From contig NZ_PZPL01000001.1 in the NCBI RefSeq assembly GCF_003044275.1, positions 1,612,001 through 1,676,000 on the forward strand: DNA of 64,000 bases. Reading direction: 5' to 3'. Each line of letters starts with the position of its first letter. The first letter of the stretch is position 1. The notes beneath the pieces were generated by a model. That model saw only the letters and a program-made list of their open reading frames with translations, was not told the origin of the DNA and searched no databases. This DNA comes from Rathayibacter caricis DSM 15933. Lineage in GTDB: Bacteria > Actinomycetota > Actinomycetes > Actinomycetales > Microbacteriaceae. The translations under genes were made by a program, and so were the position numbers. Of this stretch, positions 10,465 to 59,627 are shown one piece after another.

Positions 10465-10484
10465 CGCGGCCTCTGGAGGACGGG

Positions 10485-10580
10485 GGTCTCGATACGCCCG
10501 CTGCGCGGGCTACTCGACCAGCAGGGGGGCTTCCCCGTGCCTGCCGGTCGAGTAGCCGCCGGAGGCGGCGTATCGAGACC
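10485..10580. repeat. Inverted pair of REP-like elements between convergent genes (locus B)
   Basis: The left arm (10485-10525) and right arm (10540-10580) are 41-base inverted copies with 35 matches and a 14-base spacer. Each arm is itself a hairpin: GCCCGC-TGC-GCGGGC on the left and GCCGCC-GGA-GGCGGC on the right, flanked by TCGATAC and TACTCGACC. Four of the six mismatches between arms are compensatory changes inside the small stems. The right arm carries GTAG (10552-10555) directly at the stem base, as in REP sequences. It lies between the 3' ends of lacI and abfA and may serve as a bidirectional terminator. Confidence 0.85.
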
Positions 10581-10600
10581 CACCGCCTCCGGAGTCGGCG

Positions 10601-17993: not shown

Positions 17994-18222
17994 TGCTGAT
18001 CGAGTAGGCCGCGGAGGGGGGCGGACCTGCCTGCTGATCGAGTAGGCCGCGGAGCGGCCGTATCGAGATCCGCGGTGTCGGGCGGTGGTGGGTCTCGATA
18101 CGCCCCTGCGGGGCTACTCGACCAGCAGAGGGGGCGGACCTGCCTGCTGATCGAGTAGGCCGCAGAGGGGGGCGGACCTGCCTGCTGATCGAGTAGGCCG
18201 CGGAGCGGGCGTATCGAGATCC
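17994..18222. repeat. Cluster of five REP-like elements (locus C)
   Basis: This gap between the acetyltransferase and HAD genes holds full copies at 18032-18071, 18091-18127 (opposite orientation) and 18183-18222, and 3'-truncated copies at 17994-18016 and 18145-18167. The three full hairpins are GGCCGC/GCGGCC, GCCCC/GGGGC and a GCCCGC/GCGGCC variant with one mismatch. A segment GCGGACCTGCCTGCTGATCG is repeated at about 18021, 18134 and 18171, showing local duplication. No gene is visible in the 315-base gap. Confidence 0.85.
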
Positions 18223-18268
18223 GCGTGCTCGGGAGGGGGCGTTCTCCCGGGCTCGGTAGGCTCCGCGG

Positions 18269-42765: not shown

Positions 42766-43083
42766 TCAGAGGGCGCCCTGCTCCGGCGTGCCGGCGGGGA
42801 TCGGAGCGAGACGCACGATGCGCGGCGGCTCCTGCAGCAGCCCCTCGAGCGACGCGTTGAGGCGCGCGACGGGCTCGCCCGCGCCGTGGGCGTCGAGCTC
42901 GGCCGCGCTGGTCCACTTCTCGATCATCACGACGGTGCCGTCGGGCGCGTCGTGGATCGAGTAGAGCTCGCAGCCCGGCTCGCCGTGCACCTCCGCGATG
43001 CCCGCGCGCAGGGCGTCGACCATCCGCTCGCGGGCGCCCTCGGCGGGGGTGAAGACGACGTGGACGACGACGGGAGCGGTCAT
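42766..43083 (-). CDS. Antibiotic biosynthesis monooxygenase (ABM) domain protein
   Basis: The 105-residue protein has the ABM/YgiN dimeric alpha-beta barrel: VVHVVFTPAEGARERMVDALRA, EVHGEPGCELYSIHDAPDG and VVMIEKWTSAAELDAHGAGEP. Members are cofactor-free quinol monooxygenases or stress proteins. ATG 43083 has GAGGAA upstream; the frame before it has no family match. It is convergent with the MFS gene and 40 bases from the ppx/gppA stop on the other side. Confidence 0.88.
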   Translation of the reverse strand: MTAPVVVHVVFTPAEGARERMVDALRAGIAEVHGEPGCELYSIHDAPDGTVVMIEKWTSAAELDAHGAGEPVARLNASLEGLLQEPPRIVRLAPIPAGTPEQGAL

Positions 43084-43123
43084 GGCGGGATTCCTCACGG
43101 TGGGCGGGGCGGAACCCTCCACG

Positions 43124-44065
43124 CTACTCCGCTCGGTCGGTGCTCCCGCTGAGGCCGAGCGCCATGCCGTCGAGGAGGTCGTGCGCGGTCGAGGTGACGG
43201 AGTCGAGTCCGGGCGAGGCGCTGCTCGCGGCGCGCAGGACCTCGCCCCAGATCAGCGCGCCGGCGGCGATGACGTCCTCGCGGCCGGAGCGCAGGTAGGG
43301 CAGCGCTGCGGCGTCGGCCGGGGAGAGGCGGGCCAGGTCGTCGCAGGCGGCGAGCACGGTGGCCAGGGGGAGCTCCGCCTCGAGCGCCTCGCGGTCGTAG
43401 GCGCGGAGCCGGAGTGCGTGCGCGGCGACGGTCAGCACCGTCGCGGCGACGCCGACCACGCTCCGGGCGCGCGAGAGGTCGACGGAGGAGGCGGCCAGCG
43501 CCGCGCAGACGTCGGCCCGCATCGCCTCCCGCTCCTCGTCGGTCGGCGCCGCGGCCCGGCGGTGGCGCTCGGTCAGGCGGACGCTGCCGACGTCCATCGA
43601 GTGCGCCTGCTCGGGTGCCTCGTCGCCGAGGACCAGCTCCGTCGATCCGCCGCCGAGATCGACGACCAGCACGGGCCGGTCCGTCTCGACCACCCCGGTG
43701 GCGCCGCGGAAGGAGAGCGCGGCCTCCTCCTCGCCGGTGATCGTCTCGGGACGCACCCCGATGATCCGCTCGACCGCGTCGAGGAACTCCTCGCGGTCGC
43801 TCGCATCCCGGGTGGCGGACGTCGCGGCGAAGCGCAGCCGCGTCGCTCCGGCATCGCGGACCAGATCGGCGTACTCGCGCGTGACGGCCAGCGTGCGCTC
43901 GAGCGCCGCGGGGTCGAAGCGGCCGGTGCGGTCGACGCCGTGGCCGAGGCGGACGAGCTCGGTGCGGCGCACCACGTCGGTCACGCGGTCGCCGTCCACA
44001 TCGGCGATCAGGAGGCGGAGGGAGTTGGTGCCGCAGTCGAAGGCGGCGACGCGCGTGCGAGGCAT
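43124..44065 (-). CDS. Ppx/GppA phosphatase family protein
   Basis: The 313-residue protein has the actin-like ATPase fold of Ppx/Gpp[21 protein letters not shown] (phosphate 1), [34 protein letters not shown] and [18 protein letters not shown] (phosphate 2 with catalytic Glu). The length corresponds to the short actinobacterial form (domains I and II only, without the C-terminal helical half of E. coli Ppx). It hydrolyses polyphosphate or pppGpp. It is divergent from prpD; the gap contains the three-way-junction element at 44112-44168. Confidence 0.9.
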
Positions 44066-44111
44066 GCCGCCATCCTCCAGGACCCGGCGCCGGAGCGGGG
44101 ATCGCGGCCCC

Positions 44112-44168
44112 GCTAGGGCCTGGTGGCGAGGAGGTCGCCGTCGCGAGCACGCGAGACCAGGTCCTAGC
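44112..44168 (+). other. 57-base three-way-junction element in the prpD leader
   Basis: The outer stem is GCTAGGGCCTGGT (44112-44124) with ACCAGGTCCTAGC (44156-44168), 13 pairs including one G-U if transcribed on the plus strand. Inside are two hairpins: GGCGA-GGAGG-TCGCC (44125-44139) and TCGCG-AGCA-CGCGA (44141-44154). Only the loops and two single G linkers (44140, 44155) are unpaired. The G-U pair would be a C-A mismatch in minus-strand RNA, which favours action in the prpD direction. It could be a regulatory leader, a transposon-like palindromic repeat or a DNA cruciform site. Confidence 0.6.
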
Positions 44169-44195
44169 CTGGGAGGACGAGCCGAAGGAGCCCCC

Positions 44196-45719
44196 GTGCA
44201 CGATCACCACGTCCGCGTCCACCGCAGCGACGAGAACCTCGAGCGCGCCGGCCAGCTCGCCCACGCGCTCGCCGAGATCGCCGTCGACCCGGTCGCCGTC
44301 GACGACGAGGTCGCCGAGATGGTCGTCAACCGCGTCATCGACAACGCGGCCGTCGCCACCGCCTCGCTGCTGCGCCGCCCCGTCGTCGCCGCCCGCTCGC
44401 AGGCGCTGGCGCATCCCGCCTCGATCGGGGGAGAGGGCGCCGTCGTCGTCGGCACCGACCTCTCCCGTCGCGTGTCGCCCGAGTGGGCGGCGTGGGCCAA
44501 CGGAGTCGCCGTGCGCGAGCTCGACTACCACGACACCTTCCTCGCGGCCGAGTACTCGCACCCGGGCGACAACATCCCGCCCCTGGTCGCCGTCGCCCAG
44601 CACGCGGGCATCGGAGGCGCGCAGCTGGTGCGCGGCATCGTCACGGCCTACGAAGTGCAGGTCGACCTGGTCAAGGCGATCAGCCTGCACCGGCACAAGA
44701 TCGACCACGTGGCGCACCTCGGCCCGTCGGCCGCCGCGGGCCTGGGCACGATGCTCGGGCTCGACGTGGCGACCGTGGAGCAGGCGATCGCCCAGGCGCT
44801 GCACACCACCACCGCGACCCGGCAGTCCCGCAAGGGCGAGATCTCGACCTGGAAGGCGTACGCGCCGGCCTTCGCGGGCAAGATGGCGATCGAGGCCGTC
44901 GACCGGGCGATGCGCGGCGAGACCAGCCCGTCGCCGATCTACGAGGGCGAGGACGGCGTGATCGCCTGGCTGCTCGACGGCGCCGGCGCCTCCTACGACG
45001 TGCCGCTGCCCGACCGCGGCGAGGCCAAGCGCGCGATCCTCGACACGTACACGAAGGAGCACTCGGCCGAGTACCAGGCGCAGGCGCTGATCGACCTCGC
45101 CCGCCGGCTGCACCACTCCCACCCCGAGGCCGCCGACCCCGAGCGCGTCGAGCGCATCGTGATCCACACCTCGCATCACACCCACTTCGTGATCGGATCG
45201 GGCGCGAACGACCCGCAGAAGTACGACCCGCAGGCGTCGCGCGAGACGCTCGACCACTCGGTGCCCTACATCTTCACCGTGGCGCTGCAGGACGGAGCCT
45301 GGCACCACGTGCGCAGCTACGCCCCCGAGCGCGCGGCCCGGGCCGACACCATCGCGCTCTGGCACCGCACGACGACGGAGGAGGACGCGGAGTGGACCCG
45401 CCGCTACCACTCCGAGGACCCGGCCGAGAAGGCGTTCGGCGCGCGCGTCGAGATCCTGCTCACCGACGGCACCACGATCGTCGACGAGATCGCGGTGGCG
45501 GATGCGCATCCGCTCGGCGCCCACCCGTTCTCGCGCGAGCAGTACGTGTCGAAGTTCCGCACGCTCGCGGCCGACGTGCTCGAGGAGCGCGAGATCGAGC
45601 GCTTCCTCGACCTCGCGCAGCGGCTGCCCGAGCTGACCCCCGAGGAGGTCGGACAGCTGACCGTCGTGGCGGCGCCCGGCGTGCTCGCCTCGGTGGAGTC
45701 GCCGCGCGGGCTGTTCTAG
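44196..45719 (+). CDS. prpD: MmgE/PrpD family protein, 2-methylcitrate dehydratase
   Basis: The 507-residue protein matches PrpD in length and in the segments [77 protein letters not shown] and [20 protein letters not shown]. PrpD dehydrates 2-methylcitrate to 2-methylaconitate in propionate breakdown. It starts at GTG 44196 after GAAGGAG. prpB and prpC are not adjacent, so it is an orphan; other MmgE/PrpD substrates remain possible. The 57-base folded element lies 27 bases upstream. The downstream gap holds a repeat array. Confidence 0.9.
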
Positions 45720-45751
45720 CCGGTCGTGCAGCGGCGTTCCGAGATTGACGT

Positions 45752-46053
45752 GTCCGGCTGTGGTGGATCTCGATACGCCCGCTCGGCGGGCTACTCGATC
45801 AGCGGAGAGTTGCTGGTCGAGTAGCCGCGGAGTGGCGTCTCGAGACCGACGTGTCCGGATGTGGTGGATCTCGATACGCCCTCTGCGAGGGCTACTCGAT
45901 CAGCAGGGTGTTGCTGGTCAAGTAGCCGCGGAGTGGCGTATCGAGACCGACGTGTCCGGATGTGGTGGATCTCGATACGCCCTCTGCGAGGGCTACTCGA
46001 TCAGCAGGGAGTCGCTGGTCGAGTAGCCGCAGACCGGTGTCTCGAGACCCGCC
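45752..46053. repeat. Tandem array of three ~100-base units made of inverted REP-like pairs (locus D)
   Basis: Units start at 45752, 45852 and 45953 (periods 100 and 101), each beginning GTCCGG.TGTGGTGGATCT. Each unit holds one element in one orientation (45765-45803, 45866-45905, 45967-46008; stems GCCCGC/GCGGGC, GCCCTC/GAGGGC, GCCCTC/GAGGGC) and one in the other (about 45811-45846, 45912-45948, 46013-46049). The array fills the 337-base gap between the convergent prpD and putA genes. No gene is visible there. Confidence 0.87.
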
Positions 46054-46056
46054 GTG

Positions 46057-49000
46057 TCAGAGCAGGGCGTCCGTCAGGTGGTCCGGCGTGCCGAAGCGGT
46101 GCGCGGTGATCGAGACGGCCTGCTCGCGGACGAACGGCAGGAGCTCGAGGCGTCCCGACTCCGTCACGGCACCGGCGTGGACCGCCAGGTCGGGGCGGCC
46201 GTCGGTGACCGAGGTCACGTCGGAGGCCGGTGCGCCGATCAGCCGCACCCGGCCCGCTCCGTGCGCCCGCACCCGGCGCGACCAGGCGGCCTCGTCCTCC
46301 ACGACCGCGTCGGCGACGGCAGCCGTTGCGGCGGCGACCTGCGGAGGCAGCGACGTCGCGCTCGACACGACCACCGCTCCTCCGACGCCCGCCGCCGCGG
46401 CGACGACCTGCACGAGCGAGCCCAACGGCTCGCCCTCGGCCAGGCGCACCAGAACGGGGGAGCCGTACGCGAGCCGCCGGAACACGTTGCGCTCGGCCGC
46501 GAGCCCCGTCACGTCGCGGGGCGCGTGCTCGGCGAGCGCCTCGGCCGCGCTGCGCGCCGTCCGCTCGACGGCTCCCGCTTCACCGGCCGACAGCTCCGCC
46601 CGCGCCGCCGCGACGAGCCCGGCCGCCGCGGCGGGCACCTCCGCCATCGCGGTCGACGCACGGGGCGTCCACGTGCCGAGCCCCAGCAGGTAGTCCGGCC
46701 CGCCCGCCTTCGTGCCCGGCCCGACCGCCGACTTCTTCCAGCCGCCGAACGGCTGGCGCTCCACGATCGCGCCCGTAATCCCGCGGTTCACGTACAGGTT
46801 TCCCGCTTGGATGCTCTCGAGCCACGTTCCGATCTCGACCGGGTCGAGCGCGTGCAGCCCCGAGGTCAGGCCGTAGTCGACCTCGTTCACGATCGCGATC
46901 GCGTCCTCGAGGGTCGGCGCGGTCATGATGCCGAGCACCGGTCCGAAGTACTCGGTGCGGTGGTACTCGGACCCGCGGCGCACGCCGTCGCGGACACCCG
47001 GGCTCCACAGGCGGCCGGAGTCGTCGAGCGTCCGCGGCTGCAGCAGCCAGCTCTCGCCCGCGCCGAGCTCGGTGAGCCCGCGCAGCAGCTTGCCGGCGGC
47101 GGGCTCGATGACCGGTCCCATCCGCGTGGCGGGGTCGGTCGGATATCCCACCGTCAGCGAGGCGACGGCGTCGAGCAGCTGCGCGCGGAACCGCTTCGAG
47201 CGGGCGACGGAGCCGACGAGCACGACGAGCGACGCGGCCGAGCACTTCTGGCCGGCGTGGCCGAACGCGCTCGACACGACGTCCTTGACCGCCAGGTCGA
47301 GGTCGGCCGAGGGAGTGACGATGATCGCATTCTTGCCGCTCGTCTCGGCGAGCAGGGGGAGGTCGTGGCGGAACGAGCGGAACAGCTCGGCCGTCTCGTA
47401 GGCGCCGGTGAGGATCACGCGGTCCACGGCGGGCGAGGCGACGAGATCCGCGCCGAGCTCCTCCTCCGGGACCCGCAGCAGGAGCAGCGCCTCGCGGGGG
47501 ACCCCCGCGGCCCAGAGCGCCTCGGCGACGACCGCGCCGCAGCGCGCCGTCGGTCCGGCCGGCTTGAGCACGACGGCCGACCCCGCGGCCAGGGCGGCGA
47601 GCACGCCACCGGCCGGGATCGCCACCGGGAAGTTCCACGGCGGTGCGACGAGCGTCAGCTGCGCGGGGTGGAACTCGGCGCCGTCGACCGAGTCGAGCTC
47701 GCGGGCGCGCTCGGCGTAGTAGTGCGCGAAGTCGATCGCCTCGGACACCTCCGGGTCGCCCTGGTCGATCGTCTTGCCGGCCTCGGCGGCCATCACCTCG
47801 AGCAGGTCGGCGCGGCGGGCCTCGAGCTCCTCGCCCGCGCGGTGCAGGATCCGTGCGCGCTCGTCGGCGGGGACGCGGCCCCAGGTGAGGCCGGCGTCGC
47901 GGGTCGCGGTGAGCGCCGACTCCAGCTCGCGGAGGGCGGTGAGCGTCGCGGCCTCGATGCTGTCGACGCCGAGCCGGGAGGAGGGGACCCGCGCGAGGAT
48001 CGCGTCGGCCCAGTCGCGGTTCGCCGCGACGGAGGGATCGGTGTCGGGCGTGCTGCGGAAGTCGCCGAAGCCCGGTCGGCCGCTCGCGGCGAAGCGGTCG
48101 GCGACGCGGTGGGCGGGCGGCACGGTTCCGTCGAGGGCGGCGACGGAGGCGCGGAACCGCGACTCCTCCCGCGCGAACAGCTCCGGCTGCGCCTCGAGCT
48201 CGAAGACGGCCGACATGAAGTTCTCGCTCGACGCGCCCTCCTCGAGTCGGCGGATGAGGTACGCGATCGCGACGTCGAACTCGGCCGGGGCGACGACCGG
48301 CGTGTAGAGCAGGAGCGAGCCCACGGTGCGGCGCACCGCCTCCGCCTGGCCCTGCGCCATGCCCAGCAGCATCTCGTACTCGATGCCGTCGCGGACCCCG
48401 CGCTCCCCGGCGAGCAGCCACGAGTAGGCGACGTCGAAGAGGTTGTGGCCGGCGACGCCGACCCGCACGTTGCGGATGCGCTCGGGGTGCAGCGCGTAGT
48501 CGAGCACGCGCTTGTAGTTCGTGTCCGAGTCCTGCTTCGTGCTCCAGGTCGCGAGCGGCCAGCCGTGCACCGAGGCCTCCACCTGCTCCATCGGCAGGTT
48601 CGCGCCCTTCACCACGCGCACCTTGATGCCGGCCCCGCCGCGGGCTCGACGCGCGGCGCTCCACTCCTGCAGGCGGATCATCGCCGACAGCGCGTCGGGC
48701 AGGTAGGCCTGCAGCACGATGCCGGCCTCGAGGTCGTGGAACTCGGGGCGGTCGAGCAGGCGGGTGAAGACCGCGATCGTGAGGTCGAGGTCCTTGTACT
48801 CCTCCATGTCGAGGTTGACGAACTTCGCCGGAGTCGCGGCGGCGGCGCGGGCGAACAGCGGAGTGAGCTCGTCGACGATGTCGTCGACCGCGGCATCGAA
48901 GGCCCACGGGTTGTGCGGGGCGACGGTGGAGGAGACCTTGATCGACACGTAGTCCACGTCGTCGCGGGCGAGGAGGCGGTGCGTGCCCTCGAGGCGGCAC

Positions 49001-59313: not shown

Positions 59314-59386
59314 GCGGCGCGACCTGAAGGTGGGCCTCGGTGTGAGGTCTGCGGGTCGCGGGACGGCCCGCACAGTCGGCCCGCGT

Positions 59387-59582
59387 GCTGATCGAGTAGG
59401 CCGCGGAGCTGCCGCACCCTTGCTAGATCGACTAGGCCGCGGAGCTGCCGCACCCTTGCTGATCGAGTAGGCCGCGGGAGCGGCCGTATCGAGATCCGCG
59501 GCTCCTGAAGGAAAGGGTCGGCGTGCCGATCCTTTCGGCGTGGCGGGTCTCGATACGCCCCGGCGGGGCTACTCGACCAGCA
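59387..59582. repeat. Cluster of REP-like elements (locus E)
   Basis: The 314-base gap between the convergent GH35 and GMC genes holds truncated copies at 59387-59409 and about 59420-59443, a full copy at 59457-59497 (stem GGCCGC/GCGGCC, loop GGGA) and one in the opposite orientation at 59546-59582 (stem GCCCC/GGGGC). The segment AGGCCGCGGAGCTGCCGCAC is directly duplicated. No gene is visible. Confidence 0.83.
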
Positions 59583-59627
59583 AGGTCGAGCGGGCCCCAC
59601 TTCTCCCGGGCGCCGCCCGACGCCGCC

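Follow-up and report, generated by a model that had tools for sequence, protein, structure and literature searches.

As far as the accessible text of PMC2229807 and PMC10969869 describes them, the MITEs ERIC/IRU, Correia/NEMIS and RUP are palindromic sequences of about 100-200 bp that are dispersed and mostly intergenic. The family of the element described here, which lies upstream of prpD in Rathayibacter caricis DSM 15933, resembles them in all of these respects. It differs from them, as they are presented in that text, by its CTAG ends and by the conserved structured core of its full-length copies, a core which is also found without CTAG arms. REP elements with RAYT are likewise palindromes located close to gene ends, but no Y1 transposase was found in the 15 genus genomes. 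Insertion sequences of the IS5 family, IS427 type (IS870 and actinobacterial relatives) have a CTAG target, as the element does, and its CTAGGGC.TGT-like tip resembles that of the insertion sequence on contig C2 of the same genome and of a Microbacterium sediminis relative. Unlike these insertion sequences, the element carries no transposase gene, and the sequence inside its tip is unlike that of the C2 insertion sequence.

We interpret the prpD element as a decayed and internally deleted MITE copy, probably of the IS5/IS427 type, which inserted at CTAG, and give this reading a probability of about 0.8. As a decayed MITE it is ordinary in kind. A literature search, with most subscription journals outside its reach, found no description of this CTAG-element family.

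The palindrome upstream of prpD

The window (the whole stretch of 64,000 nucleotides that was analysed) had received a first-pass annotation reporting a 57-base three-way junction upstream of prpD, and this structure is real. At 44112-44168, pairing between 44112-44124 and 44156-44168 gives an outer stem of 13 bp around two 5-bp hairpins, leaving 11 of the 57 bases unpaired; the MFE is -38.1 kcal/mol (z -5.0), and none of 200 dinucleotide shuffles was as stable. The annotation was also correct about the GGAGG sequence of one hairpin loop (44130-44134), the single plus-strand G-U pair of the outer stem, and the 27 bases that separate the fold from the GTG start of prpD (44196). The element proper extends from CTAG to CTAG (44113-44167, plus strand, 55 nt), the outermost G-C stem pair being flanking DNA. 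Its fold, its repeat matches and a match to the R1 model (44113-44166, 24.1 bits, E 0.0052, a score lower than that of several unrelated palindromes in the same window) identify it as a short decayed copy of a CTAG-ended palindromic element.

The left terminal arm (CTAGGGCCTGGT, 44113-44124, plus strand), whose tip resembles both the full-length copies and the IS5-type insertion sequence at their ends, pairs with a right terminal arm (44156-44167, plus strand) that ends in CTAG (44164-44167) and is about 9 nt shorter than that of other short copies. Between the arms, on the same strand, hairpin 1 with its GGAGG loop (44125-44139) is unlike the other short copies found here, and hairpin 2 (TCGCG-AGCA-CGCGA, 44141-44154) is the apparent site of an inner deletion between GAGCACG direct repeats, judging from a comparison of short copies with full-length ones. 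The element lies between divergent genes, since its left neighbour, a Ppx/GppA family gene (43124-44065), is on the minus strand and prpD, a MmgE/PrpD family gene matching PF03972 and PF19305 (44196-45719), on the plus strand. From its sequence, AAGGAG (44185-44190, plus strand) reads as an ordinary Shine-Dalgarno-like sequence before prpD.

The R1 model also matches other palindromes of the window, at 10473-10591, 18088-18223, 45754-46060 and 59343-59590. The repeat GGTCTCGATACGCC...GGCTACTCGA (read at 10473, 45754-46060 and 59343-59590) is different from the CTAG element and overlaps a sub-threshold Rfam mir-761 match.

The search for regions orthologous to that of prpD succeeded in 14 of the 15 genus genomes. 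Two of these regions carry the element, namely R. caricis itself (G000) and G004 (97% identity over the prpD query), and 12 do not, G013 (91%) being the closest genome without it. This distribution bears on one of the three readings proposed in the first-pass annotation, according to which the fold is a cis-regulatory RNA in the 5' leader of prpD. The stable fold, its position directly upstream of prpD and the G-U pair on the prpD-sense strand are what a leader could be expected to present, but the element is missing at 12 of the 14 orthologous regions, other copies lie beside unrelated genes, and an Rfam search of window positions 43000-46000 returned no family at gathering score on the element. 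The two copies at prpD differ by five changes, four of them in the left arm, where three pairs are broken and one becomes G-U in G004, and the fifth in the loop of hairpin 1 (GGAGG to GGAGA in G004). The fold energy is -38.4 kcal/mol in G000 and -27.1 kcal/mol in G004, and this loss of pairs, seen between two sequences only, speaks against the fold being maintained by selection at prpD. Moreover, a -10-like TAnnnT motif (TAGCCT, 44165-44170, plus strand) overlaps the CTAG at the 3' edge of the element and is present in all 14 orthologous regions, as TAGCCT, TAGATT, TAGGGT or TAGGCT. The motif may well be the -10 box of prpD, and its conservation at the element's edge suggests that prpD transcription probably starts downstream of the element. 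A riboswitch or other leader was thus rejected on the absence of the element from most orthologous regions and of any Rfam match, and we regard this reading as very improbable.

Two of the prpD regions without the element have upstream repeats of their own. In G010 (L109), a tandem GAGCGGAGCACGATCGGCC repeat resembles part of the CTAG element, and in G001 (L114) another palindrome occupies the same intergenic space.

Dispersed copies and their insertion sites

Another reading of the first-pass annotation, a mobile palindromic repeat (the third being a cruciform binding site), is borne out by copies at unrelated loci, by filled and empty sites and by the CTAG target. In R. caricis, the prpD copy as query gave 7 matches including itself, two of which (L005 and L007) are unlike the element, and a 64-nt consensus-like query gave 12 matches at 9 places including prpD. 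The latter query also found matches in 8 of the 15 Rathayibacter genomes, a dispersal that points to a MITE. Weak R1 matches, near E 1e-4, are unspecific, those inspected being arm-less core elements (see below) or unrelated palindromes; R1 matches in 14 of the 15 genomes are therefore not a count of CTAG elements.

In G003, G004, G005 and G013, and once in R. caricis, the ends of the short form are located about 165 bp apart, delimiting a longer, full-length form. A pattern built on its inner part retrieved 20 stretches from genome_contigs, all of them from Microbacteriaceae (16 from Rathayibacter, 3 from Pseudoclavibacter and 1 from 'Microbacteriaceae bacterium VKM Ac-2854'). The 21 full-length copies, including the R. 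caricis one, measure 165 nt (13 copies), 166 nt (6), 164 nt (1) or 183 nt (1) and are too short for a transposase gene. CTAG is present at both ends of 11 of these 21 copies. Their ends are terminal inverted repeats: when 13 of the copies are folded to a consensus, the arms pair with each other apart from scattered broken pairs. Rfam assigned no family at gathering score to 5 full-length loci, and no full-length Rathayibacter element was found on plasmids. A phage origin was considered and rejected, as neither the full-length element nor the Streptomyces-type core described below matched phages, and the inner-part pattern found nothing in viral_contigs.

Comparison of the two forms suggests that the 64-nt form arose by deletion between two GAGCACG repeats of the full-length element, and that the prpD copy lost about 9 further bases of its right arm. 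Only 3 of the 15 short copies that were folded, the prpD copy included, have a branched fold. The three-way junction is thus not a feature of the family, and it would be an accident of internal deletions.

The neighbourhood of the copies was examined on our own gene calls. In 20 of 36 copies, a neighbouring gene takes its stop codon from the TAG of a terminal CTAG; this is the gene on the left in 11 copies and the one on the right in 12, some copies serving both; gene orientation around the 36 copies is mixed. One locus is occupied by a full-length copy in G013 (L035, C1:206285) and by an internally deleted one in G004 (L036, C64:2307), the two having a common right flank. Just downstream of both elements is a sequence that we take, from its appearance, to be a TPP riboswitch.

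Filled and empty sites can be compared at several loci. At prpD, the empty site of G013 reads ...CCG-CTAG-CCTGGGAGG and the filled site of R. caricis ...CCG-CTAGGGCC...GGTCCTAG-CCTGGGAGG, a single CTAG in G013 standing where the element's right-end copy lies; an exact CTAG occurs at this site in 4 of the 12 element-free genomes. The R. caricis copy at C1:3304417 corresponds to a single CTAG in 5 of 6 relatives and to a short remnant in the sixth (G004). The full-length R. caricis copy (C1:838064-838228) is absent from G004, which has a single CTAG there, and G013 has no CTAG at this place. For the G007 copy, an exact empty site was found in G005, one of four relatives. Target duplication thus appears clear at these four loci. 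Elsewhere, CTAG is found at the site in 4 of 7 relatives (G5_22), in 3 of 3, but with unrelated sequence adjoining (G5_11), or in none of the 3 relatives that have no element (c2408). Taken together, these alignments indicate CTAG as the target, with exceptions at c2408, c838 (in G013), the G007 copy, G5_11, G5_22 and prpD.

A candidate mover of the IS5/IS427 type

PF13340, a profile of IS5/IS427-type transposases, has a match in one of the 15 genus genomes, on contig C2 of R. caricis (5 of 14 control genomes have one). The insertion sequence concerned (L243:822-1799) has the ends CTAGGGCTTGTCTCCCAT and TTAGGGCGTGTTTCCCAT, and two of its frames match profiles, the first PF13340 and the second PF01609/PF13586. 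The PF01609/PF13586 ORF takes its stop codon TAG from the terminal CTAG. A relative of this insertion sequence in Microbacterium sediminis, 81.1% identical over the whole length and with CTAG at both ends, is annotated as an IS5 family transposase. None of the 14 other genus genomes matches PF13340, including the copy-rich G004, G005 and G013, whose partner transposase would thus have been lost, be a different one or have been missed.

The tip of the element resembles that of the C2 insertion sequence. The 21 full-length copies provide 42 ends, of which 11 agree with CTAGGGC.TGT at all 10 fixed positions and 30 at 9 or 10. When CTAG sites were sampled from 964 kb of DNA of the genus, 2 of 400 control reads agreed at 10 positions and 7 at 9 or 10; as the 42 ends share kinship, this comparison is support and not proof. 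The likeness to the C2 insertion sequence is confined to about 10 terminal bases, the sequences differing further in. PMC9241763, in its accessible part, describes an IS5-family element from actinobacteria whose direct repeats are the 4 bases CTAG, and the reference list of PMC6471742 contains a title on IS870, a CTAG-target insertion sequence. We place the element with IS5/IS427-type MITEs because of its CTAG target, its tip and these published CTAG-target insertion sequences, and infer a partner transposase of that type. One feature of the family goes against IS5 mobilisation: the arms vary with compensation, which simple recognition by a transposase does not need.

Other types of transposase can be weighed against the same data. 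A MITE of the IS630/Tc1 type, like RUP or ERIC, would target the TA contained in CTAG, and the reference list of PMC2170065 contains the title 'Preferential transposition of an IS630-associated composite transposon to TA in the 5'-CTAG-3' sequence'; palindromes of 100-200 bp are also what the accessible text of PMC2229807 reports for MITEs. However, PF13358 (DDE_3), the sole IS630 profile searched, is matched in none of the 15 genus genomes (3 of the 14 controls have a match), and the tip of the element resembles an IS5-type insertion sequence. An IS630-type mover was therefore not supported, and we hold it to be improbable. Even more doubtful is a RAYT or an IS200/IS605 Y1 transposase that would have moved a REP-like palindrome in single-stranded form. 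Such a mover would suit a small palindrome close to gene 3' ends with some strand asymmetry, but insertion of the element leaves CTAG at both ends, and the absence of PF01797 (Y1_Tnp) matches from all 15 genus genomes, against 5 of the 14 controls with a match, left REP/RAYT unsupported; we give it almost no weight.

Sequence comparison shows that copies are scattered over genomes of the genus, that CTAG was the insertion site at several loci, that copies have decayed, and that their ends resemble those of an insertion sequence in the same assembly. The history of the decayed IS5/IS427-type MITE at prpD can be proposed as follows. A full-length MITE of about 165 nt would insert at CTAG, leaving CTAG at either end, and would most likely be moved in trans by a transposase of the IS5 family (IS427 type) that acts on its terminal repeats. 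In the common ancestor of G000 and G004, such a copy would have landed upstream of prpD, in a CTAG overlapping the -10-like TAnnnT motif. After landing, it would have lost internal sequence and pairing.

A structured core shared beyond the CTAG elements

The full-length copies contain a core of about 70 nt (GAGCTGCAAGG.GG ... hairpin ... CGCCGCAGAT). A second element class, reached via weak model matches, consists of a long variable stem around the core GAGCTGCAAGGCGG...hairpin...CGACAACGCCGCAGAT. The core model, R2, matches 20 of the 21 full-length CTAG elements with E 4e-5 or better, so the CTAG element contains the core. It also matches all 15 genus genomes, with a best match of at least 88 bits in each, and 14 of 249 family genomes (5 of 85 genera), five of these 14 belonging to Rathayibacter itself and the match in the G086 genus being a CTAG element. 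Rfam returned no family at gathering score for 6 core loci, the sub-threshold mir-9242 match on L066 reaching 29.2 bits against 62.

Core elements without adjoining CTAG arms (L143-L180, L182) are about 100 nt long and mostly located at or overlapping stop codons, some of them in tandem. In R. caricis they lie on C1 at 233958, 840661, 2175467, 2198791, 2198899, 2442637, 2442746, 3642399, 3678488, 3795934, 3827695. Some are found at orthologous genes with changed stems, for example at nrdH (a gene name read from the translation).

Context was scored on our own gene calls at 37 of 40 R2 loci, leaving out L146 and L167 (near contig ends) and L181 (a CTAG element); several of the loci are orthologs and hence not independent. 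In 35 of these 37 loci the right-hand gene runs against the core strand, and in 29 of 37 its end lies -21 to +26 bases from the core element. Among plasmids, all blastn matches of the core were in Streptomyces records, of which one query found 11 and a second query 30. In 12 matches inspected, some of them from the same neighbourhood or plasmid, the right-hand gene runs against the core in all 11 annotated loci, and in 9 of these 11 the left arm is of the CTAG or TTAG type (for example CTAGGGGGTGTCGTTTGGATC). In a plasmid of Streptomyces sp. NBC_01450 (L245), the flank beside the right CTAG matches Tn3 family transposase genes of other plasmids, and this copy may lie in or beside such a gene. 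Like the core elements here, mycobacterial interspersed repetitive units are repeats that overlap stop codons and keep to one orientation; they differ in that they are not known to be palindromic.

On contig C1 of G007, which starts with dnaA, the best 15 of 19 core-model matches are split by strand: the 10 below 1.44 Mb are all minus-strand matches, and the 5 above 2.64 Mb are all plus-strand ones. It is as if the genes next to the core ran with replication, although tandem copies are not independent. GC-skew sampling for replication origins gave no clear signal, G007 alone being usable, and a relaxed DnaA expression detected dnaA in G007 alone among the sampled stretches.

Thirteen full-length copies fold as a rod of 65 pairs, 17 of which are changed on both sides among the copies, and core stems at the same gene differ yet pair (e.g., L054/L063 and L143/L154, compared by eye and uncounted). 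The first-pass annotation had remarked on one outer pair that is G-U on the plus strand, and an excess of G-U over A-C recurs in the family: along the plus-strand consensus, G-U exceeds A-C by 55 to 4 cells in A3 and 31 to 1 in A5. With pairs predicted from both strands the excess is modest, being weak in the CTAG family at 25 to 7 cells (sign test over pairs, p 0.06) and clearer in the core set at 11 to 0 (p 0.004), and in all these counts the rows share ancestry.

One may then ask whether the full-length element persists because it functions as an RNA or as a folded strand of DNA, with MITE ends that only spread it. The compensated rod and a core common to a second element class present in 15 of 15 genus genomes speak for such a function. 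Against it, the prpD copy has its core deleted and its stem decaying, CTAG copies are in mixed orientation to genes, and arm-to-arm correction in palindromes can yield compensatory changes without function, which is why these changes are no proof that the core is functional. We consider a functional full-length element unlikely, and it would be compatible with reading the prpD copy as a MITE. Somewhat less doubtful, although still tentative, is the idea that the core itself is a module with a conserved function at the 3' ends of actinobacterial genes, acting there as RNA or as a folded strand of DNA, and that IS5-type ends captured it and spread it.

For the window itself, the analysis disposes of a false lead, the prpD riboswitch, for which it found no sign, and it reveals an insertion in what is probably a promoter region. 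The wider family and the core that its members share merit separate study, and the core is an interesting lead: IS5-type mobile ends are here joined to a structured core common to Microbacteriaceae and Streptomyces. If this core is not functional, the family would be a clear case of transposition and palindrome correction mimicking RNA covariation. A functional core would instead amount to an element of actinobacterial gene 3' ends with built-in spreading, for which no description was found in the literature searched.
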